Source: a bacterium
GTDB lineage: Bacteria > Patescibacteriota > Minisyncoccia > UBA6257 > JAGOQP01
Length of the DNA stretch: 56,359 bases
Assembly (NCBI GenBank): GCA_021812345.1
Contig: JAKANP010000005.1
Span: 1-56,359, forward strand
Reading direction: 5' to 3'
Shown piece by piece: positions 9,767 to 22,081 of the stretch. Position numbers and translations under genes: made by a program. Every line of letters starts with the position of its first letter. Within the stretch, counting starts at the first letter, position 1. Below the pieces are notes generated by a model. The model did not search any database. It saw nothing but the letters and a program-made list of their open reading frames with translations, and had not been told where the DNA came from.

Positions 9767-12700
9767 ATGAAAAATATTTTTTATTTGTTTTTCAAAAGAT
9801 TTGTAATGGTCGCGTTTTTTTCGTTATTTCTAATCGGTTTTTTATTTTCCGCTCAACATATTTATGCTGTTGACGGATCGGGATCCGCTGTTGTGGCGCC
9901 CGGTTCTGCCAATGCCGGTTCAACAGGGGGGACTTATGTTTTTACTTTTACCGCTGCCGAAGCAATGAACAGTGGCGAAGTATCGATTTCTACCGCTCCG
10001 GGGTGGAGCGCGATGCAGGGAGTTTCGGGAACTGCCGGCTACACGACTGTTGCTTCCACCGGATTGACGGCTAACGTAGAAGACAACGCCGATTCTTTGA
10101 GCGGATGGTCAGCCGGGACGGCTTGCTTGAATGGATTATCTTCCGATACTTTAAATTATCATGAGGGTTTGGGCTCAATTTTATGTTCAACCGGAGACCA
10201 AAATACGGGTCAAGTTTTTTATAAAAATATTTCTTCTCAAAATTGGTCGTCTTACACTAAAGTTGGATTTTGGATAAAAGTCGGGAAAAATATAAGTTCA
10301 GGCAATTTAAGATTTCTTTACGACGATAATAATAATTTGGCCAGTCCGATTGCAAGGATAAACCTTCCGGCAATAACCGCAAATACTTGGACGTTTGTAA
10401 ATTTAAGTCTTTCCGGTACAAGAACTTCTGTTTTAAGTTACGGTTTTGAAATAAATAATAATACTAATTTAGACAATACTACAATAAATATTGACGATAT
10501 TTTACTTGGCCCAGGAAGCCCGGTTTTTGTAAATGGCATCGCTCATGTAAGACTGTTAACTCTTTCTTCCGGACAAACAGTGACATTTAATTATGGTTTT
10601 GGAGGAGGAACCAGCGGAGCATCGGCTCCTTTGGTTGGTCAAGTGTCAACCTTTTCAACTCAAACAAGAACTTCCGATTCCGGTGTTTTAACTAATATAT
10701 CAACTTCTCCGAAAATAACCGTTAATAATCCCGTTCCCGCCATTTTGTCTGTTTCTCCAACTTCAACGATAGCCGGTGGAACGCAATTCACGCTTACGGT
10801 GAATGGGTCAAATTTCAATGCTTCATCTTCCGTTAATTGGAATAGCTCTCCCAGAGTTACAAATTATATTTCATCAAATCAATTATCGGCTACAATTTTG
10901 TCTTCCGATATTGCGAATGAAGGGACTTCAACGGTGACGGTAGTCAATCCTACGCCCGGAGGAGGAACGTCAAATGGAGCAACTGTGACTTCGATTGCGA
11001 TTGCGGTTAAATTTGTCATATTGCCTCCGGGGAATGGAACGGTTGACGCTTCTGTTCCGGTAACTGTTCAAGCTCAAAAAAATGACGGATCAGTTGATCC
11101 TAATTTCAATAAAGGTGTTACATTGAATGTTAATGGTTCCGCTACCGGAGGAGGACTCTTGAGTTTTGCGAGTGGAGTGGCAACTACATCAATTTCCGAT
11201 CATGTAGCGCAAACAGTTCTATTGTCTTTGACGGATTCACAATCAACGGGACTTATTTCCACTTCAACACAAGAAATAATTTTTTCTCCGGGAGCAATAA
11301 CTCAATTTTCTTTGAATAATCCGGGTAATATGTATGCAAATACAAGACTTGGATATACGGTTACCAGAAAAGATCAATATTCAAATCCCGTTTCTGCTTC
11401 AACGTCGACGGTTTATCTTTACACTTCATCTACCAGCACCAATCATGGATTTTATAATGACCCATTGATTGGAAGTTATTTGAATTTTATTTCTATTCCC
11501 GACGGTTCCGCTAATGCTTCTTTTTGGTATTACGAAACTGTTCCGGGAAATTATTTAATTACGGCTTCCGATAATTCTTCCGCTCCCGATGGCGCGGCCG
11601 GCATCGCAGATGCGACTTCTTCAGTTGAAGTTATGCCGGTAGCGACTAAGTTTGTCATAATGCCTACTACTTCTACCACCGTGGATAATCCTATTACCGT
11701 TACGATACAAGCTCAAAAACCGGATGGGACCGTTGATGTTAATTATCAAAAAGGAGTTACTCTTGTTGTAAACGGTTCGGCTACCGGAGGGGGATTGGTA
11801 ACTATAGTTAATGGAGTGGGGACGATGAAAATTTCCGATACTGTTCCGGAAACCGTTCATTTGTCTCTTTCGGACACTCAATCAACCGGTCTTGATGTTT
11901 CTTCTTATCAGGATGTTTATTTTGGAGTCGGGGCCACGGCTCAATTTGTTTTGAGTCATCCGGTATCGATGGGCGCGGGCACCAGAGCGGCCTATACAAT
12001 AACCAGAAAAGATCAATTTGGAAATTTAACGACAAACGGAACCGGCACGGCCTATCTTTACAGCTCTTCTCCAAGTTTAAATAAAAAGTTTTATGATTCA
12101 GCTACCGCGGGAAATGTTATAACTTCAATTCAATTTCCCAATGGGCAATCGTCCGCTAATTTTTGGTATTACGACGATACTTTGGGAACTTGGACCATAA
12201 CCGGGTCGGATAACGCTTCATCGCCTGACGGTTCGGTTGGCATTCAAGATGCCGTTGATTCAATTATTGTAAATCCCGGTCCGGTCGCTTCTTTTTCTTT
12301 GAATAATCCGGGTGGAATGAGTGTTGGCACTTATCTTGAGTATTCGGTAACAAGAAAAGACCAATTCGGAAATCTTGTTACTTCTGGAATAACTCCCGTT
12401 TATCTTTACAGTAGCGCGAATGATACGAGCACCGGATTTTATCTTTCTTCCGGCGGGGGAACTCCAATAAAATCGGTATCAATTTCAGATTCCAGTTCCA
12501 CCGCTAATTTTTGGTATTATGAAAATGTTCCGGGTAATTATACTTTAACCGCTTCCGATAATTCTTCCGCTCCCGATGGAGCCACCGGCATAGCGGATGC
12601 GACTGTTTCTGTAAATGTCATGGCGGCTCCGATTGTTGCCACAAAATTTGTTATTTTACCGACAGCTACGGGAACGGTTGATTCTCCGATTACCGTTACC

Positions 12701-14701
12701 ATAGAAGCTCAAGATAATAGCGGCAATATAGATACTTCCGCCACTTCCAGTGTCACTTTGGTTGTGGGCGGTTCGGCTACCGGAGGGGGACTGGTTACTA
12801 TGGTTAATGGAATCGGAACCGCATCCGTTTCCGATCATAAAGCCGAAACAGTAACTTTGTCTTTATCCGATACTCAGGGAACGGGATTGAATGTTTCTTC
12901 CGTTCAAAATGCGATTTTTAATCCGGGAGCGGTTTATCAATTTACTTTGGATAATCCCGGCGCAATGGCGGCTGGAGTAAGACAACAATTTACCGCAACC
13001 AGAAAAGATAAATATGGTAATCTTGTCACCTCCGGTTCAAATTCTGTTTATCTTTATTCCGCATCAATTGGAACATATCATTTTTATAATGCTTCCAGTG
13101 GAGGCAGCTCAATCAATTCTTTGGTCATAACCGACGGATATTCGTCCGCGCCTTTCTGGTATTACGACGAAAAAGCGGCGACAACCACAATAACCATTTC
13201 CGATAATTCATCTTCTCCGGATGGACCGATTGGAATTGTTGATGCCTCTCAAACTATTATTGTCCAACCGGGTCCGGTTTATAAATTTATTTTGGATAAT
13301 CCGGGAAATATGACTGCCGGAACCAGATTGGGATATTCATTGACGCGTCAAGATCAATTTAATAATCCGGTTATTTCCGGAGTTCTAACTGCCTATCTTT
13401 ACACTTCATCTGTTGGAGCGACAACTACCGCATTTTATGACGCCGCGTCAGGAGGAGGAAGTGAAACTTTCGTTGTCTTTAATAACAATGTTTCATCCGT
13501 TCAATTTTGGTATTTTGATGAAAGTCCCGGAACTTGGGTAATAACCGCATCCGATGGAACTCCTACTCCCAATGGAACTTCCGGAATTCAAGATGCCGCT
13601 GTTTCTGTCACGGTTACTTTGGCGCCAATCGTCGCAACTCGCGTCAACATAATGCCTGTTGGAGATACGCTTGTCGGACAAAACGCGCTTGTCACAGTCA
13701 AAGCTCAAGATGACAGCGGCAATACGGATACTCTTTATAATGGAAATGTTTTACTTTCTGTTTCCGGTTCAGCGTCCGGAGGGGGACAAATTAATATTGT
13801 TAATGGCATTGGAACCATATCAATTCATGATTCTGTTGCCGAAATAGTAAATCTTTCCTTGTCCAGCTCTTCCAGCGGATTGATAACGTCTTCTGCTCAA
13901 ACTATAAGATTTTATACATCTTCCGGTCCGGCATTTTATGGAGGGGGGTCGGTTGCTATGCCGATAATTCCGGTTATAACCGGAGTCCAATTTTCGGGTA
14001 CGGCATTTACCGGAGCTAAGCTTAATATTATATCCATTGGCAATGCGGGCGATGTTCCGGTAAAACAACAAACTGTCGCTTCAGCCAGCGGTTCGTTTAA
14101 TATTCTTTTTAGCAATATACAATCTGGAGCCCGTTCTTACGGAATTGTCGCTTATGATTCTTCAAATCGTCCCACTCAAACAAAAATATTTGACGCTAAT
14201 TTAGCCAATTCAAATCAACTTCTTAAAATTTCCAACGTTCTTCTTTCTCCAACCCTGGGCTTAATCAGAACATCAATAACAAGAGGGGACAATCTTGGAT
14301 TGATTGGTTCGGCTACGGCAGGTAATAAAATTGAAGTGGAAATTGACGGAAATATTTCAACCAGTTCTTCCGCTACCGCAGATTCAAAAGGCAACTATAA
14401 AATTCTCATTAATACCGCTTCGTTGGATTTTGGAAGCCATACAGTTAGAGTGAGGCAAGTGACGTCAGGAGGAACCAAAAGCGACTTTTCTCCCCAACAG
14501 GTTTTTTCAATTACGAAAGTATTTACGCCCAATATGGATTTTAACAATGACGGAGTGATTGATATAAAAGATTGGAGCATATTTATTTCCCGATGGACAT
14601 CAACCGATCCTAAAGTAAGGGCTTTAGACGATCTTAATGGAGACGGCAAAGTTGATGTCCAAGATTTCAGTATTTTTGTGAGAACCCTAAAACAGCAATA
14701 A
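9767..14701 (+). CDS. Giant secreted repeat protein with C-terminal dockerin
   Basis: 1644 aa. The signal peptide is residues 1-34 (cleavage after IYA). Residues ~103-249 look like a beta-sandwich/CBM-type domain (FWIKV..., NTWTFVNLSL..., INIDDILLGP), and ~321-411 an IPT/TIG domain. From ~414 to ~1385 two Ig-like modules alternate as A-B-A-B-B-A-B-B-A; A modules begin KFVILP-like and contain GSATGGG, and B modules contain TRKDQ.GN and FWYY. Further Ig-like domains reach ~1587. The end (1588-1644) is a type I dockerin with two calcium loops, DFNNDGVIDIKD and DLNGDGKVDVQD. It is followed by a cohesin gene, so it is probably held on the surface through cohesin binding. Target glycan or host surface is unknown. 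Confidence 0.88.
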   Translation: MKNIFYLFFKRFVMVAFFSLFLIGFLFSAQHIYAVDGSGSAVVAPGSANAGSTGGTYVFTFTAAEAMNSGEVSISTAPGWSAMQGVSGTAGYTTVASTGLTANVEDNADSLSGWSAGTACLNGLSSDTLNYHEGLGSILCSTGDQNTGQVFYKNISSQNWSSYTKVGFWIKVGKNISSGNLRFLYDDNNNLASPIARINLPAITANTWTFVNLSLSGTRTSVLSYGFEINNNTNLDNTTINIDDILLGPGSPVFVNGIAHVRLLTLSSGQTVTFNYGFGGGTSGASAPLVGQVSTFSTQTRTSDSGVLTNISTSPKITVNNPVPAILSVSPTSTIAGGTQFTLTVNGSNFNASSSVNWNSSPRVTNYISSNQLSATILSSDIANEGTSTVTVVNPTPGGGTSNGATVTSIAIAVKFVILPPGNGTVDASVPVTVQAQKNDGSVDPNFNKGVTLNVNGSATGGGLLSFASGVATTSISDHVAQTVLLSLTDSQSTGLISTSTQEIIFSPGAITQFSLNNPGNMYANTRLGYTVTRKDQYSNPVSASTSTVYLYTSSTSTNHGFYNDPLIGSYLNFISIPDGSANASFWYYETVPGNYLITASDNSSAPDGAAGIADATSSVEVMPVATKFVIMPTTSTTVDNPITVTIQAQKPDGTVDVNYQKGVTLVVNGSATGGGLVTIVNGVGTMKISDTVPETVHLSLSDTQSTGLDVSSYQDVYFGVGATAQFVLSHPVSMGAGTRAAYTITRKDQFGNLTTNGTGTAYLYSSSPSLNKKFYDSATAGNVITSIQFPNGQSSANFWYYDDTLGTWTITGSDNASSPDGSVGIQDAVDSIIVNPGPVASFSLNNPGGMSVGTYLEYSVTRKDQFGNLVTSGITPVYLYSSANDTSTGFYLSSGGGTPIKSVSISDSSSTANFWYYENVPGNYTLTASDNSSAPDGATGIADATVSVNVMAAPIVATKFVILPTATGTVDSPITVTIEAQDNSGNIDTSATSSVTLVVGGSATGGGLVTMVNGIGTASVSDHKAETVTLSLSDTQGTGLNVSSVQNAIFNPGAVYQFTLDNPGAMAAGVRQQFTATRKDKYGNLVTSGSNSVYLYSASIGTYHFYNASSGGSSINSLVITDGYSSAPFWYYDEKAATTTITISDNSSSPDGPIGIVDASQTIIVQPGPVYKFILDNPGNMTAGTRLGYSLTRQDQFNNPVISGVLTAYLYTSSVGATTTAFYDAASGGGSETFVVFNNNVSSVQFWYFDESPGTWVITASDGTPTPNGTSGIQDAAVSVTVTLAPIVATRVNIMPVGDTLVGQNALVTVKAQDDSGNTDTLYNGNVLLSVSGSASGGGQINIVNGIGTISIHDSVAEIVNLSLSSSSSGLITSSAQTIRFYTSSGPAFYGGGSVAMPIIPVITGVQFSGTAFTGAKLNIISIGNAGDVPVKQQTVASASGSFNILFSNIQSGARSYGIVAYDSSNRPTQTKIFDANLANSNQLLKISNVLLSPTLGLIRTSITRGDNLGLIGSATAGNKIEVEIDGNISTSSSATADSKGNYKILINTASLDFGSHTVRVRQVTSGGTKSDFSPQQVFSITKVFTPNMDFNNDGVIDIKDWSIFISRWTSTDPKVRALDDLNGDGKVDVQDFSIFVRTLKQQ

Positions 14702-14731
14702 TTAAAGGTGGAAATAATTTATTAAAAATTC

Positions 14732-14737
14732 TATAAT
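14732..14737 (+). promoter_or_regulatory. -10 box of the cohesin gene
   Basis: TATAAT lies 9 nt before the ATG at 14747. This suggests a separate, near-leaderless transcript for the cohesin gene besides any readthrough from the dockerin gene. Confidence 0.5.
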
Positions 14738-14746
14738 TATTGATAT

Positions 14747-16171
14747 ATGAGATTTACAAAAAATAAAATCGTATTCTTGTTGGCCGTTTTATTTATGATT
14801 GTTCCGTTTTTTGCCAAAGCGGCCACGTTAAATTTTGTGGCTTCTCAAAATCAATTTGTTATCGGTGATCAATTCAGTGTTGACGTTAAAGTTGACAGCG
14901 AAAGCGCCGGAATTAACGCCGTTCAAGCGACGATTCAATTTCCTCCGGATATTTTAATAGCTACCAGCACCGATAAAACCGATTCCGCTTTTAATTTTTG
15001 GCTTCAAGATCCGACAATAGACAATAATGCCGGGAAAATAACTTTTATTGCCGGCGCAACTTCCGGATTTTCGGGAAAATCTCTTCAAGTATTAAAAATA
15101 AATTTTATAGTCAAGGGAGCAGGACAGGCTAATATAAATTTTACGGACGGAGCGGTTACTGCCAGTGATGGAAGCGGAACCAATGTTTTGAGTTCGATGC
15201 AGAATCTGCAGATAACCAGCATTACAAAACAAGACGCCAAACTTATTCCGGCTCCAAAAATAGTTAAACCCGCCGTGCCGACAGGAGTTCTTCCTTCAAA
15301 ACCCGTGATTCAAGTTCCTTTATATCCTGACCAAAATGCTTGGTATAATTCGGTTTCAAGTTTTATTGTTCAATGGAATTTGCCTAAAGATGTCACGAGT
15401 GTTGCGGCGGTTATAAACAAAGAGCCGCTTACTAATCCGACTCAGTCAAATGGCGTTTTTGATAATGAAACTTTCCCCGGACTTTCGGATGGAATTTGGT
15501 ATTTGCACGTAAGATTTAAAAATGATATCGGATGGGGACCGACTCTTCATTACAAAATTTCAATAGACACCATTCCTCCTATGCCGTTTACCGCGACAGT
15601 TAAAGAGGGAAATACTACTGACGTTATCAATCCAACTATACAATTTAGCACAACCGATCAGCCTTCCGGGATAGATTTTTATCAAGTCGTTGTCGATAAT
15701 AGCGCTCCGATAAAAACATCTTCAACTTCTTTAACTCTTCCCCCTCAAAATGCCGGCGCTCATAGAATAACCGTTTCCGCTTTTGATTTTGCGGGAAATA
15801 GTTCGGAATCAAGATTGACCGTAAATATTCAAGAAAAACCGTTTTTTGTTATCGGTGGTTTTTCGGTTACGCAATCAATGTTTTTTATAAGCATTATAAT
15901 TTTGATTTTCTTGGGAATTGTTGCCGGTTGGCACATAAGTTATCTTGCAAAAAAGAGAGTTCAGGGAAGGGTAATTATCGCTCAACGTGATGTAGTTAAT
16001 TCCTTTAATTTAATTTCAAAAGAAATAGATGCTCTTTTATTAAAATATAATGATGGCCAGATAGACGAAAGAGAAATCCAAGAAATTAAGTTTTCTCTTG
16101 AACGTCTTAAAACAACGACCGATAAAATAAAAAAATATGTTGCCGACAATATTGAAGAAATTGAGGATTAA
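14747..16171 (+). CDS. Membrane-anchored cohesin-domain protein
   Basis: 474 aa. The signal peptide is residues 1-25 (AKA|ATLNF). Residues ~26-160 form a cohesin-type domain: VIGDQFSVDVKVDSESAGINAVQATIQF, then LQVLKINFIVKGAGQANINF. After a Pro-rich linker, residues ~180-370 hold two Ig/FN3-like domains, the second containing IDTIPPMPFTA and SAFDFAGNSSES. One membrane helix at ~379-399 is followed by a 75-residue charged, coiled-coil-like cytoplasmic tail. Cohesins bind dockerins with high affinity, and the preceding gene ends in a dockerin, so this is the probable membrane receptor. The tail could contact cytoplasmic partners. Pairing is inferred from adjacency. Confidence 0.82.
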   Translation: MRFTKNKIVFLLAVLFMIVPFFAKAATLNFVASQNQFVIGDQFSVDVKVDSESAGINAVQATIQFPPDILIATSTDKTDSAFNFWLQDPTIDNNAGKITFIAGATSGFSGKSLQVLKINFIVKGAGQANINFTDGAVTASDGSGTNVLSSMQNLQITSITKQDAKLIPAPKIVKPAVPTGVLPSKPVIQVPLYPDQNAWYNSVSSFIVQWNLPKDVTSVAAVINKEPLTNPTQSNGVFDNETFPGLSDGIWYLHVRFKNDIGWGPTLHYKISIDTIPPMPFTATVKEGNTTDVINPTIQFSTTDQPSGIDFYQVVVDNSAPIKTSSTSLTLPPQNAGAHRITVSAFDFAGNSSESRLTVNIQEKPFFVIGGFSVTQSMFFISIIILIFLGIVAGWHISYLAKKRVQGRVIIAQRDVVNSFNLISKEIDALLLKYNDGQIDEREIQEIKFSLERLKTTTDKIKKYVADNIEEIED

Positions 16172-16210: not shown

Positions 16211-16582
16211 ATGAAGATATTAATCGTTGAAGACGAACAGGTTTTGGCAAAAGTATTCCAGGAAAAATTCGAAAAGTTGCATTATGACGTAAAAGTGGCG
16301 ACTGATGGGGAAGTGGCTTTGGGTATGGCAAAGAGTTTTAATCCCGACGCTATTGTGCTTGATTTGGTTCTTCCCAAAAAAGGCGGTTTTGAAGTTCTTG
16401 AAGAAATCAAAAATGTTGATTCTCTAAAAATGGTTCCGGTGGTGGTTGTTTCCAATTTGGGAGAAGACGAAGATATAAAAAAGGCAATTTCTTTAGGAGC
16501 GGTGGATTATTTTGTCAAAGCTCAGCACCCTATAAACGAGATAGTTGATAAAATAAAAAGCGTGATTATTAAAGCGAAATAA
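16211..16582 (+). CDS. Single-domain response regulator
   Basis: 123 aa, a bare receiver domain. The acidic pocket is Glu7-Asp8, the phospho-acceptor Asp51 (VLDLVLPKKGG), the switch Ser81 (VVSNLG) and Lys103 (YFVKA). There is no output domain, so it works through protein contacts like CheY or Spo0F. It lies 39 bp after the cohesin gene and 32 bp before the large kinase, which is its likely phosphodonor. Confidence 0.92.
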   Translation: MKILIVEDEQVLAKVFQEKFEKLHYDVKVATDGEVALGMAKSFNPDAIVLDLVLPKKGGFEVLEEIKNVDSLKMVPVVVVSNLGEDEDIKKAISLGAVDYFVKAQHPINEIVDKIKSVIIKAK

Positions 16583-16614
16583 TCGCCCAAAGCCGGACAT
16601 ATTAATTGTTTTCT

Positions 16615-19600
16615 ATGAGCGATAATTGGTTCGGACTTTATAAAAAAATTAAAGGATTAAATATAAAAACGGTTATTTTGCCTGCCGTAATTTTTATTGT
16701 TCTTCTTTTATCAACTTATTTTGTTTGGACAAAAATAACAGAACAAATCTCATATGACAAACAAAATCTTTTTAATCAGGAGGCTCAACGGGCGATAAAA
16801 TCATTTCAAGACAGAATCGTTCTTGGAAATTCGGTTCTTAGCGGAATGAAAGGATATTATGAATCTATGCAACGGTCGATTACTCCGCAAGAGTGGCTAA
16901 ATTATATAAAACAATTGGAGCCTCAAGCTAAAAATTCCTGTATAGATGCCATAGGATATATTAAAAAAGTTTCCCAAAATAATTTATCCGAAGAAATAAA
17001 AAATGCCAATGATTACGTCGCTTTATTTAATGGAAATTTTGGGCCGGTAGTTTTTCATCCTCAAGGGAACAAAGAAAATTATTACATAATAAAATATTTT
17101 TTTCCGTTAGATGAAAAATCGTTTGACCTTTTGGGTTTTGATTATTCTTCTCAAGAACAATTAAATCAAACAATACAATCGTCAGGCAGTTTATCGACTA
17201 TTCAAATTACTCCCATTCAAAAAATGTGGGACAATAATCATCCTAGAGTGGACGCATTAATACCTATTTATTATAAACAAAATTATGCATTTGAATCGTC
17301 ATCAACTTTGAGAGGTTTTGGTTTGGCGATAACCGACATAGATAATTGCGCCAGATCAATTATCGGCGGTTCCGTTGTTAATGGAATAAATTACAAAGCG
17401 GTTGATATAACTGGCGGCAGTCAGAATGATTTTTTTCAAAGCGACAACTGGGGGGAATATCCGCATCAATTTTTTGAACAACAAAAGATAAATTTTTATA
17501 ATCGTCAATGGCTAATTGAATTTGAATCCGCTCCGGATTTTGGAAATACGGCATCAAACACCGCCTTGGTATTTTTGATCCCGATTTTTGGCATACTGCT
17601 TAGCTTTTTTGTTTCTTCTTTGGTGCTGATGTATTCGACCTCAAGAGCCAGAGCTTATGGCTTGGTGGATAAAGTAACCGGACTTCTTCAGGAAAGCGAG
17701 GCAAAATTAAAAGAACTTTTTTATAAATCTCCGGACCCGATTTTCATATTGGATAATAGCGGAAGGTTTGTTGATATGAATGTTGCCGGAGAAAAAATGC
17801 ACGGAATACCCAAAGAAGAATTGATTAGAAATCATAAGATTTTTGATTTTATCTCTCCTTCAAGCAGCGGAATTGACGAATCTTTATGGGAAAAATTTAT
17901 TAAACAGGGAAATATCAGATTTGATTTTGTATTCAAGCACCCGCAGAGTGGAGAAGAAAGACACATGGAAGTATCTGCGGCGGCAAATTATATTCCGGGG
18001 ATGAATATAGCTATCATAAGAGATGTCACTAAAAATAGAGAATTAGAAAATGCTTTAAAAAAAGCCGAACAATTGTGGAAAACTATTTTTTCCGCCGCCA
18101 ATGACGCCATTTTAATTTTGGATGATAATCAGGAAATAATAAGTTGCAACTTGGCCGCAGAAAGAATTTATAAAGAATCAAAAGAAAAAATAATCGGCAA
18201 AAGAATAATCGATATCCGTTATGACAAGGATCAAAATAAAATTAATGAACAATTTGGCAATGTTATAAAAAACAATGGATTGATTTTTGAAACCAAACAA
18301 GTTCGCGGGAACGGCGACATTTTTGATGCCGAAGTGAGCGTTAAGCCATTTAAAATTTTTGATAAAGATTATATTGTCGATATTGTTCGTGATATTTCCG
18401 AAAGAAAAAAAATAGAAGCAAAAGAGAAAAAAATCAGCAAGGATTTGAAGATTTTAAGCGAAAGCAATCAGGCGATGATTAAATCGCAAAATGAACAGGA
18501 ATTTTTGGACAAGTTATGCAGGATAATTGTTGAAACCGGGGAGTATAAATTTGTTTGGATAGGGGAGGCATTTGATGATGGTGAAAAGTCCGTAAAGCCG
18601 GTAGCTCAATGCGGATTTAATGACGATTATTTGAAAAATATCAAAGTATCTTGGGGAGAAAATGAATATGGGATGGGTCCGACCGGATCGGCAATAAGAA
18701 ATAAAACCGTTTCTGTGGTCAGAAATATTGAAAATGATCCCAATTATTCTGTTTGGCGTTCGGAAGCGGAAAAGAGGGGATATTTATCTTCCGTTGCTTT
18801 GCCTATAATTGTCGGTATAAAAATTTTTGGAGCTTTAAATATTTATTCTTCCGAAGCGGATGCTTTTAATCAGGAAGAGGTGGAGTTGCTTGATAAATTA
18901 TCGGGTGATATCGGTTTTGGCATAAACAGCATTCGCTTAAAAAACGAAATAAAATCAAGCGAGGAAAAATATAGAAAAATGATCGAACTTTCTCCGGATG
19001 CGGTAGTAATACATTCCGGAGAAAAAATAGTTTTTGTTAATAATGCGGCCATTAAAATTTTTGGCGCCAAATCATCGGAAGAAATTGTGGGCAAGCCGAC
19101 AATGAGCTTTGTCCATCCCGATAGCATTAATGTGGTCAAGGAAAGAATTTCGGAGATGATTAATAAAAAAGAGCCCGTGCCCGTAGTGGATGAAAAATTT
19201 TTAAAAATTGACGGCTCTCCGATAGATGTTTCAGTTGTAGCGGCGCCGATTATTTATGATGGCCGTCCGGCTATCCAAGTTATAGTCCACGACATTACCG
19301 AGAGAAAACGTTCGGAAGTAAAAATGAAAGAATTAAATTCCGAATTGGAAAAATTCAAACTGGCCGTTGAAAACGCTTCCGACCACATAATAATAACCGA
19401 TATTGATGGGAATATAATTTTTGCCAATAAGGCAGCCTCTCAAACAACCGGATATCCTATAAACGAAATGATCGGCAAAACCCCTCGTCTATGGGGAGGA
19501 CAAATGCCTTTGGATTTTTATAAAGGAATGTGGAACACCATAAAATACGAGAAAAGGCCATTTTTTGGAGAAATTAAAAACAAAAGAAAGTCCGGAGAAT

Positions 19601-20424
19601 TTTATCAAGCTGTCGCAAGCGTTTCTCCGGTTCTAAACGAAAAAGGAGATGTGATGTTTTTTGTCGGCATAGAACGGGACGTTACTAAAGAGAGGGCAAT
19701 AGACAAATCAAAATCGGAATTCGTATCTTTGGCCTCCCATCAATTAAGAACTCCGCTTTCTGCCATAAATTGGTATACCGAAATGCTTATGGATGAAGAT
19801 GTCGGAAAACTTAACACCAAGCAGAGAGATTATTTGAAAGAGATTTATAATTCGAGCAAAAGAATGACCGATTTGGTCGGGTCGCTTTTGAATGTATCGA
19901 GAATAGATTTGGGAACTTTTGCCATAGAACCAAAGCCGACTGATATCGTCGAAATTGTAAAGTCAGTGATTAAGGAATTATCCCATCAAATAAAAAAGAA
20001 AAAACAAAAAATAAAAGAAGAATACGATACGAAAATCGGGCTTTTGAATGTTGACCCCAATTTAATGAGAATTGTCTTTCAAAATCTGATATCAAATTCG
20101 GTAAAGTATACTCCGCCATCGGGAGAAGTTGATGTTAAGATAAAAAAAGAAGGCGATGATATTATTGTTTCGGTTTCCGATACCGGATATGGAATTCCCA
20201 AGAGTCAGCAGTCAAGAATTTTTGAAAAGTTTTTCAGAGCTGATAATGTAAGAGAGATTGAAACCGATGGCAACGGATTGGGACTTTATATGGTTAAGGA
20301 AATTGTTGAAAAATCCGGCGGGTCAATCAGGTTTGAATCCGAAGAGAATAAAGGGACCAAATTTTTTGTTTCAATACCGATATCCGGGATGGTAAAGAAA
20401 GAAGGAGAAAAGAAGTTGTCTTAA
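16615..20424 (+). CDS. Membrane sensor histidine kinase: CHASE-PAS-PAS-GAF-PAS-PAS-HisKA-HATPase
   Basis: 1269 aa from the ATG at 16615; a TTG nine bases upstream is less likely. TM1 lies near residues 17-39. An extracytoplasmic CHASE-type sensor follows (FQDRIVLGNSVLSGMKGYYES ... RGFGLAITDID) to ~305, then TM2 near 320-342. Two PAS domains, a GAF domain (~600-780) and two more PAS domains lead to a HisKA domain with His1042 (SLASHQLRTPLSAINW). The HATPase has QNLISNSVKYTP (N box), DTGYGIP (G1) and GNGLGLYMV (G2). It is not hybrid, so it must use separate receivers; both flanking genes encode them. The external ligand is unknown. Confidence 0.92.
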   Translation: MSDNWFGLYKKIKGLNIKTVILPAVIFIVLLLSTYFVWTKITEQISYDKQNLFNQEAQRAIKSFQDRIVLGNSVLSGMKGYYESMQRSITPQEWLNYIKQLEPQAKNSCIDAIGYIKKVSQNNLSEEIKNANDYVALFNGNFGPVVFHPQGNKENYYIIKYFFPLDEKSFDLLGFDYSSQEQLNQTIQSSGSLSTIQITPIQKMWDNNHPRVDALIPIYYKQNYAFESSSTLRGFGLAITDIDNCARSIIGGSVVNGINYKAVDITGGSQNDFFQSDNWGEYPHQFFEQQKINFYNRQWLIEFESAPDFGNTASNTALVFLIPIFGILLSFFVSSLVLMYSTSRARAYGLVDKVTGLLQESEAKLKELFYKSPDPIFILDNSGRFVDMNVAGEKMHGIPKEELIRNHKIFDFISPSSSGIDESLWEKFIKQGNIRFDFVFKHPQSGEERHMEVSAAANYIPGMNIAIIRDVTKNRELENALKKAEQLWKTIFSAANDAILILDDNQEIISCNLAAERIYKESKEKIIGKRIIDIRYDKDQNKINEQFGNVIKNNGLIFETKQVRGNGDIFDAEVSVKPFKIFDKDYIVDIVRDISERKKIEAKEKKISKDLKILSESNQAMIKSQNEQEFLDKLCRIIVETGEYKFVWIGEAFDDGEKSVKPVAQCGFNDDYLKNIKVSWGENEYGMGPTGSAIRNKTVSVVRNIENDPNYSVWRSEAEKRGYLSSVALPIIVGIKIFGALNIYSSEADAFNQEEVELLDKLSGDIGFGINSIRLKNEIKSSEEKYRKMIELSPDAVVIHSGEKIVFVNNAAIKIFGAKSSEEIVGKPTMSFVHPDSINVVKERISEMINKKEPVPVVDEKFLKIDGSPIDVSVVAAPIIYDGRPAIQVIVHDITERKRSEVKMKELNSELEKFKLAVENASDHIIITDIDGNIIFANKAASQTTGYPINEMIGKTPRLWGGQMPLDFYKGMWNTIKYEKRPFFGEIKNKRKSGEFYQAVASVSPVLNEKGDVMFFVGIERDVTKERAIDKSKSEFVSLASHQLRTPLSAINWYTEMLMDEDVGKLNTKQRDYLKEIYNSSKRMTDLVGSLLNVSRIDLGTFAIEPKPTDIVEIVKSVIKELSHQIKKKKQKIKEEYDTKIGLLNVDPNLMRIVFQNLISNSVKYTPPSGEVDVKIKKEGDDIIVSVSDTGYGIPKSQQSRIFEKFFRADNVREIETDGNGLGLYMVKEIVEKSGGSIRFESEENKGTKFFVSIPISGMVKKEGEKKLS

Positions 20425-20473: not shown

Positions 20474-20863
20474 ATGGAACAAAAACAAAAATCCATTTTA
20501 GTTGTTGAAGACGAGATGCCGGTTTTAAACGCATTGGCCGATAAATTTGAAAGAGAGGACTTTATTGTTTTTAAAGCCAAAAATGGGGAAGAGGGATTAA
20601 AATCTGCCTTAGAAAACAGACCGGATATGATATTGCTTGATTTGATGATGCCAAAAATGGACGGAATAGAAATGATGAGACGCTTGAGAGAGGAAAATGT
20701 TTATGGACGCAAAGTGCCGATAATAATATTAACCAACTTATCGGCTGATGATAAAATCACTTGGGCAGTGGCAAAAGATGAGCCGGCATATTATTTGATT
20801 AAATCCGATTGGAAAATAGACGACGTAGTCGATAAAGTCCGCGATACTTTAGGGATGAAATAA
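20474..20863 (+). CDS. Single-domain response regulator
   Basis: 129 aa, receiver only. Key residues are Glu12-Asp13, phospho-acceptor Asp56 (ILLDLMMPKMDG), Thr87 (IILTNLS) and Lys110 (YLIKSDW). It is clearly different from the receiver upstream of the kinase, so the two were not produced by a recent duplication. Their placement on either side of one kinase suggests a branched phosphorelay. Confidence 0.92.
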   Translation: MEQKQKSILVVEDEMPVLNALADKFEREDFIVFKAKNGEEGLKSALENRPDMILLDLMMPKMDGIEMMRRLREENVYGRKVPIIILTNLSADDKITWAVAKDEPAYYLIKSDWKIDDVVDKVRDTLGMK

Positions 20864-20944: not shown

Positions 20945-22081
20945 ATGTCTGATATTCAAGGAAGCACAAAACAAGAGTTGCAAAAAATTTCTTCAAAAAA
21001 AATAGAAATTTTAAACATACCCGATTCATCGTCGGGCTCTTTGGGCAATTCGGAATCAAAAAAAAATATTACCGGAAGATTGGAAACAAAAATCCTTATT
21101 CTTTTTTACCAGGAATATCCCAATCAACAGCCAACTCACGACATTGTCGTTGATCAGGTTAAAGAAGTTTTGTCGGATTTGGGTTATTCCGTTTCTTTAC
21201 TCCCGATAAATCAAAGTATTGACAGAATAACTAACGGCATCAAACAAGAAAAACCCGATCTGGTTTTTAATTTATGTGAAACATTCAGAAATAACGATCG
21301 ATTTGAAACAAACATCACCGCTCTTTTGGAAATGTTTAAAGTTCCTTTTACCGGATCTGCTCCAAGCGGATTATTTTTAAGCAACGATAAGCATATAAGT
21401 AAGAAAATTTTTGATTTTCACAGAATTCCTTATGCTGATTTTTTTGTCGTTAGAGTCGGACAAGATGTTTCTGTCCCGAGGGGTTTTGTCTATCCGCTTT
21501 TTGTAAAACCGGTGAGAGAAGATGCGTCAATCGGTATTGACGATAATTCCGTAGTTTATGATTATCAATCGCTTTCTAAAAAAGTTAAAGAACTTCACGA
21601 AACATTAGGAGGGGACGTTATGGTTGAAGAATTTATAGATGGCAGGGAATTTTATGTTTCAGTTGTCGGCGATGACGGAAATATACGCGCTTTGCCGATA
21701 GTCGAGCTTGATTTTTCAAAATGGCCCGAAGGAAAACCAAAAATTTATTCAAACAAAGCGAAAATAGACGAAACATCCGAAGAATTCAAAAAAATAGATT
21801 TTGATTATGGAGAGACATTAAAACTCCCCGATGATATTCAAAAGAAAATGAAAGAATTGGCGGTCAAAACGGCAAAGGCGCTGGATGTAAGAGATTACGC
21901 CAGAGTAGATATGAGAATGGACAAAGACGGCAAGATTTATGTTTTGGAAGCGAATTTGAATCCTTACCTGAACAAAGAAGATATTCTTTCGATGTCTGCC
22001 GGAGTTGATGGAATCTCATATCCGCAACTCGTTGAAGAAATAGTTTCGAGCGCTCTTGCCAGAGGAAGAGCAATGGTTTAA
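20945..22081 (+). CDS. ATP-grasp ligase related to D-alanine--D-alanine ligase
   Basis: 378 aa. Residues 1-45 are a Ser/Lys-rich, probably disordered extension. A pre-ATP-grasp fold follows (KILILFYQEYPNQQPTHDIV). The ATP-grasp core has FTGSAPSG, FVKPVREDASIGI, VEEFIDGREFYVSVVG and, near the end, ARVDMRMDKDGKIYVLEANLNPYL, the metal-binding RxD...ExNxNP motif. Many Ddl-like ATP-grasp enzymes ligate amino acids or peptides rather than D-Ala. The N-terminal tail and the location after signalling genes make the true substrate uncertain. It closes the surface/signalling run. Confidence 0.78.
   Translation: MSDIQGSTKQELQKISSKKIEILNIPDSSSGSLGNSESKKNITGRLETKILILFYQEYPNQQPTHDIVVDQVKEVLSDLGYSVSLLPINQSIDRITNGIKQEKPDLVFNLCETFRNNDRFETNITALLEMFKVPFTGSAPSGLFLSNDKHISKKIFDFHRIPYADFFVVRVGQDVSVPRGFVYPLFVKPVREDASIGIDDNSVVYDYQSLSKKVKELHETLGGDVMVEEFIDGREFYVSVVGDDGNIRALPIVELDFSKWPEGKPKIYSNKAKIDETSEEFKKIDFDYGETLKLPDDIQKKMKELAVKTAKALDVRDYARVDMRMDKDGKIYVLEANLNPYLNKEDILSMSAGVDGISYPQLVEEIVSSALARGRAMV

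Follow-up and report, generated by a model that had tools for sequence, protein, structure and literature searches.

The window, 56,359 nucleotides of bacterial DNA that make up one contig of a 725-kb genome, carries two adjoining genes, the first encoding a giant secreted protein tipped with a dockerin and the second a membrane protein with a cohesin domain (Table 1). Both reading frames lie where the original prediction had placed a 1644-residue protein and its neighbor, and the cohesin gene starts 45 nt downstream of the giant gene on the same strand. From its N-terminus, the giant protein is composed of a signal peptide, a tip, a CoaZ repeat, two alternating repeats, an Ig-like pair and the dockerin. 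The CoaZ repeat matches NF058597 with 96 bits (NCBIfam; cut-off 30), and by phmmer the Ig-like pair is common to this protein and the short dockerin proteins of relatives.

Table 1. Positions of the genes and domains discussed in the text, numbered along the window unless a locus label is given
Feature	Position	Strand	Support
Giant secreted dockerin-tipped protein, 1644 aa	9767..14701	+	ORF; Pfam and NCBIfam matches; repeat map
N-terminal tip, aa 36-330, Ig-like domain with inserted jelly roll	9872..10756	+	AF2 model; homologs in relatives
CBM-like beta jelly roll inside tip, about aa 105-260	10079..10546	+	Foldseek; fold resemblance only
CoaZ "choice-of-anchor" PGGG repeat, aa 322-408	10730..10990	+	NF058597
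Stalk, two alternating repeats of about 110 aa each, aa 412-1391	11000..13939	+	phmmer self-repeats
C-terminal Ig-like pair beside dockerin, aa 1400-1585	13964..14521	+	phmmer; weak Big_13 match
Type I dockerin domain, aa 1590-1641	14534..14689	+	PF00404 over cut-off; profile of 55 relatives
Dockerin calcium loop 1, DFNNDGVIDIKD	14537..14572	+	Sequence; conserved ligand positions
Dockerin calcium loop 2, DLNGDGKVDVQD	14630..14665	+	Sequence; conserved ligand positions
Cohesin membrane protein, 474 aa	14747..16171	+	ORF; homologs in relatives
Cohesin domain, about aa 25-162	14819..15232	+	PF00963 matches of relatives; cohesin fold
Ig-like domain Big_13, aa 286-361	15602..15829	+	PF19077 29.5 bits, cut-off 27
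Transmembrane helix, about aa 376-396	15872..15934	+	Hydropathy
Cytoplasmic tail, about 78 aa, few proline/glycine, likely helical	15935..16168	+	Tails of relatives' large cohesin proteins
Stand-alone receiver (response regulator)	16211..16582	+	PF00072
Histidine kinase (CHASE sensor, extracellular; PAS; GAF)	16606..20424	+	Pfam
Second receiver gene	20474..20863	+	PF00072
Arm homolog of relative G046, gene split into two overlapping ORFs	L162:668-6303 (G046:C55)

The C-terminal dockerin matches PF00404 (Dockerin_1) with 26.5 bits, above the Pfam cut-off of 22.9, and is the sole PF00404 match in the 725-kb genome. Both of its calcium loops are complete and EF-hand-like, with D/N/D...D ligands (DFNNDGVIDIKD and DLNGDGKVDVQD), which bears out the two canonical calcium loops first read at this C-terminus. 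Most calcium-ligand positions of both loops are kept in at least 90% of the rows of an alignment of 55 relatives, and the profile built from these relatives matches dockerin structures of the PDB, 2y3n best of all (E 5e-15). The dockerin of nearly all relatives is single and lies few residues from the C-terminus. Four genomes from elsewhere in the phylum (G326, G218, G219 and G245) contain 8 to 21 dockerin matches, compared with one in most relatives of the genome studied here.

The AlphaFold2 model of the tip (pLDDT 83, pTM 0.81) is an Ig-like domain carrying an inserted jelly roll. The best Foldseek matches of the jelly roll are mostly CBMs (CBM4, 11, 16, 22, 30 and 61; E 1e-5 to 1e-3), and, with E 2e-5 to 1e-3 and TM-scores of about 0.5-0.6 by target for families 4, 11, 16 and 22 (Foldseek), the fold is a CBM4/11/16/22-type beta jelly roll. 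Pfam searches of the tip in 14 relatives returned no CBM family and no family at all. Glycan binding by the tip is thus a lead only, because the CBM-like fold comes without any agreeing sequence family; of the role first suggested for the arm, an adhesin or glycan binder, it is the second half that gains a structural lead, from fold. Homologs of the tip are present in 9 of 150 relatives, and tips vary among relatives while the dockerin plug stays. The giant dockerin protein of one relative (L070:9752-15500, G090:C8) is interrupted, with ORFs of 545 and 1366 aa and one TAG inside the homologous stretch.

The identity of the cohesin domain comes from family matches and fold, not from Pfam on the 474-aa sequence alone: by itself this protein gave no cohesin match with Pfam, NCBIfam or phmmer against the PDB. 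Homologs of the protein are found in 72 of the 150 relatives, and the genome itself has one. Among 64 aligned cohesin regions of relatives, 43 match PF00963 at E 0.01 or better (best E 4e-10), and the curated cut-off of this family is exceeded in the genomes of 29 of the 150 relatives. The cohesin family profile has a weak match to cellulosomal cohesin structures of the PDB (5g5d, E 0.004). The AlphaFold2 model of the domain has a pLDDT of 94-98 across most of its length, and its best 50 PDB matches are 50 cohesins (best E 2e-9), the Archaeoglobus cohesin 2xdh being among the matches with a TM-score of 0.77 by target length. Whether the N-terminal domain lies outside the cohesin fold was checked on this predicted structure; the fold is that of a cohesin, and the assignment of a cohesin-type domain to the second gene stands.

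Hydropathy shows a signal peptide at the N-terminus of the cohesin protein and, further on, one membrane helix with a tail of 78 aa behind it, in agreement with the membrane helix and cytoplasmic tail originally described for it. A membrane helix follows the cohesin in 72 of 73 large cohesin proteins of relatives, for the most part with 67-94 aa after it, and 57 of the 73 have tails of 65-95 aa with a common weak pattern. Many relatives also encode a second, smaller cohesin protein, whose tail has about 10 aa. The closest named relatives of the 474-aa protein come from genomes of uncultured bacteria, among them Candidatus Yonathbacteria (45-46% identity), which probably places the organism among the Patescibacteria (CPR). 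Phage records contained no relative of the protein.

Dockerin and cohesin genes across the phylum

Both domains occur together in 58 of the 150 relatives, the dockerin alone in 5, the cohesin alone in 14 and neither in 73 (Fisher p 5e-22; here and for the phylum sample below, Fisher values treat kin genomes as independent samples and therefore overstate the evidence, although the spread over families is real). In 54 genomes, of the 63 dockerin-bearing relatives, a cohesin gene lies at most 1 kb downstream of the dockerin gene on the same strand, and by family codes these 54 genomes span about 19 families. Among the 72 relatives with a cohesin protein, 14 have no dockerin detected by Pfam; for 9 of these 14 (G013, G031, G033, G035, G045, G049, G085, G111 and G145) a dockerin was found by local profile or gene clustering.

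In a sample of 240 genomes from the whole phylum, 60 have both domains, 25 the dockerin only, 23 the cohesin only and 132 neither (p 5e-18), and the co-occurrence persists when the order of the present genome is removed (p 5e-17). A dockerin gene followed by a cohesin gene within 1 kb is found in at least 26 genomes outside that order. The dockerin-cohesin gene arrangement recurs beyond chance.

Predicted anchoring of the giant arm

We consider it highly probable that the two genes form a surface-anchoring module in which the dockerin of the giant arm is held by the membrane cohesin. The cohesin protein would be exported and kept in the cytoplasmic membrane by its one helix, with the cohesin domain facing outside. 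Once secreted, the giant protein would plug into the cohesin by its C-terminal dockerin, which would fold around two calcium ions, and its long Ig-type arm, CBM-like at the tip, would thereby be mounted on the cell. With calcium and a removable plug, the arm would be exchangeable without sortase or covalent linkage. In this model binding between dockerin and cohesin is predicted, as is its dependence on calcium, and the arm may act as an adhesin or glycan binder.

One relative, G046, bears on the role of the dockerin. Its arm homolog has the same tip and CoaZ-like repeats and then, after an apparent frameshift, a second ORF that ends not in a dockerin but in the peptidoglycan-binding domain PG_binding_1 (PF01471, E 3e-10). 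Because a peptidoglycan-binding domain is found at that end, the dockerin appears to stand in for an envelope anchor, and this anchor swap is the best functional argument for such a role. Together with the cohesin fold and the phylum-wide gene pairing, this replacement strengthens the surface anchor that was first predicted from the two genes.

The two genes share a reading frame, which allowed dockerin and cohesin to be modeled as one read-through fusion, joined by the linker and the signal peptide. The domains of the fusion are confidently predicted, the linker is a long helix and, at a pTM of 0.64, the mutual placement of the domains is unsettled. That unsettled placement, and the genomes that carry one domain without the other, would agree with an arrangement in which dockerin and cohesin are not partners, the dockerin being a calcium-stabilized cap or the binder of a third partner and the genes lying side by side as co-expressed surface proteins. 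We judge such an arrangement improbable, as the phylum-wide co-occurrence and adjacency of two known partner domains is far more than would be expected if arbitrary surface genes were simply co-expressed, and as the plug is constant while the tips vary.

Little is known about how ultra-small Patescibacteria grip hosts or surfaces, and a mechanism has been predicted for only a few of the proteins on their surface. Anchoring through a conserved plug-socket pair would be a concrete mechanism of this kind, one that can be tested cheaply on two small soluble domains, and the pair would account for dockerin genes in genomes without cellulases. SEML1_0315, a dockerin-domain surface protein, is essential for epibiotic growth of the cultivated Saccharibacterium Southlakia (PMC10633639). 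SEML1_0315 resembles the giant protein in being a dockerin protein on a patescibacterial surface, with a proposed role in targeting host glycans, and its essentiality makes the anchoring idea genetically testable in that organism. Dockerins of a giant protein from Omnitrophota have been proposed as adhesins (PMC10066038).

Relation to cellulosomes and other known systems

The original prediction spoke of a cellulosome-like attachment. As a cohesin-dockerin anchor this description is retained; in its enzymatic sense it is dropped, given the single dockerin, the single cohesin and the lack of a catalytic domain. A cellulosome was rejected for this genome, where the sole dockerin is on a non-catalytic repeat protein and there is one cohesin homolog. 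A cellulosome-like complex of enzymes by which the cell feeds on polysaccharides would use the same pair of domains and could make use of a CBM-like tip; the cohesins and dockerins expressed by another Patescibacterium have been interpreted in this way (PMC9123182), and one relative has dockerin-tipped glycosidase-like proteins beside its cohesins. We nevertheless regard such a complex as very improbable here: the giant protein showed no catalytic domain, nor did eight other giant arms, 48 of the 63 dockerin-bearing relatives have a single dockerin match, and among 127 cohesin proteins in the loci examined, each with one cohesin, there is no multi-cohesin scaffoldin. The relative in question belongs to the same order (L128:1904-9721, G015:C2) and, unlike the locus described here, has a small cellulosome-like set of tandem dockerin-tipped proteins adjoining cohesin proteins, two of the dockerin proteins being glycosidase-like (GH39-like, PF01229, E 4e-16; GHL15, E 2e-9).

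The cellulosome of Clostridium thermocellum and its relatives shares with the present pair the type I dockerin and cohesin folds and a cell-anchored cohesin, as in anchoring scaffoldins. The pair differs from it in having no enzymes and no multi-cohesin scaffoldin but one plug and one socket. Those cellulosomes are anchored to the cell via S-layer homology domains, whereas a membrane helix would anchor the cohesin here. The recurrence of the gene pair across the phylum suggests that a component best known from cellulosomes serves here to keep surface proteins attached to the cell, and the pair counsels caution against annotating such dockerin and cohesin genes as cellulosomes.

Cohesins and dockerins outside cellulosomes are already known (Peer et al. 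2009, cited in PMC10066038). The noncellulosomal modules of Archaeoglobus (2xdh) and Clostridium perfringens (2jh2, 2vo8) have the cohesin fold in common with the present protein and a use outside cellulose digestion, and here too cohesin and dockerin are encoded together without cellulosomal enzymes. The present system is distinguished from these modules by a fixed operon-like pair, a giant Ig arm, a cohesin that spans the membrane and has a cytoplasmic tail, and a phylum-wide occurrence. A literature search, with most subscription journals outside its reach, found no paper on the conserved pair, on a cohesin spanning the membrane or on the association with two-component genes described below, and none that combines cohesin, dockerin and Parcubacteria.

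A likeness to the WxL/WxLIP clusters of Gram-positive bacteria (PMC10599100) is seen in relatives whose dockerin proteins are short, where a WxLIP-like protein lies beside the dockerin and cohesin genes. This membrane protein precedes the pair in several such loci; 8 of 13 examples match PF06030 weakly, and the WxLIP-like profile matches EfmWxLIP1 structures (E 6e-5). In L073:5890-11184 and similar loci the WxLIP-like protein is accompanied by a small secreted protein, rich in beta structure, with the shared motif YxDTITYxC at its end; the short dockerin and cohesin genes follow, and such loci may be patescibacterial surface clusters of the WxL kind. No WxLIP-like gene was recognized beside the pair in the window among the proteins scanned, and Pfam found no WxL domains.

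Two-component genes beside the pair

Downstream of the cohesin gene lie a receiver gene, a CHASE/PAS/GAF histidine kinase gene and a second receiver gene, an arrangement that is the layout of giant-arm loci. We define giant-arm loci as those whose dockerin protein has at least 550 aa (up to 5025 aa), the dockerin protein of short-arm loci usually having 160-500 aa. Giant-arm loci mostly have one large cohesin protein; in most short-arm loci a small cohesin protein comes first and a large one follows. Of 22 giant-arm loci, 16 have receiver or histidine kinase genes no more than three genes away from the pair, versus 2 of 53 short-arm loci (Fisher p 1e-9), a comparison that should not be biased by the selection of the loci for carrying a dockerin or cohesin. 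The genome has three receiver domains only, two of them downstream of the pair, and the gene order of the histidine kinase region is the same in G001 and G002. These observations hint that the adjoining two-component genes may regulate or read out attachment.

A more specific possibility, which we hold to be plausible but rather doubtful, is that the pair is a contact sensor, relaying attachment or arm tension through the membrane helix and the 78-aa tail to the receiver and the CHASE kinase. It would agree with the contrast between giant-arm and short-arm loci, with the presence at the locus of two of the genome's three receivers, with the long tail that is typical of large cohesin proteins and absent from small ones, and with the CHASE or Cache sensors carried by several of the neighboring kinases. 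However, adjacency may reflect co-regulation only, the tail pattern is weak, the kinases at L085 and L086 have no recognized extracellular sensor, and the giant-arm loci are partly a single lineage. More tentative still is the wider proposal that Patescibacteria have a phylum-wide calcium plug-and-socket that mounts exchangeable giant arms, the socket signaling attachment inward to a dedicated two-component system. If true, it would be a contact-sensing device assembled from cellulosome parts.

Two further observations concern the genes downstream of the pair. The kinase ORF is listed from a TTG at 16606; translation probably begins instead with the ATG at 16615, because relatives begin three codons later (MSDxW...). 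The second receiver gene is followed, at 20945-22081, by a gene for a D-Ala-D-Ala-ligase-like ATP-grasp protein (PF07478, E 2e-28) that is kept in G001 and G002.
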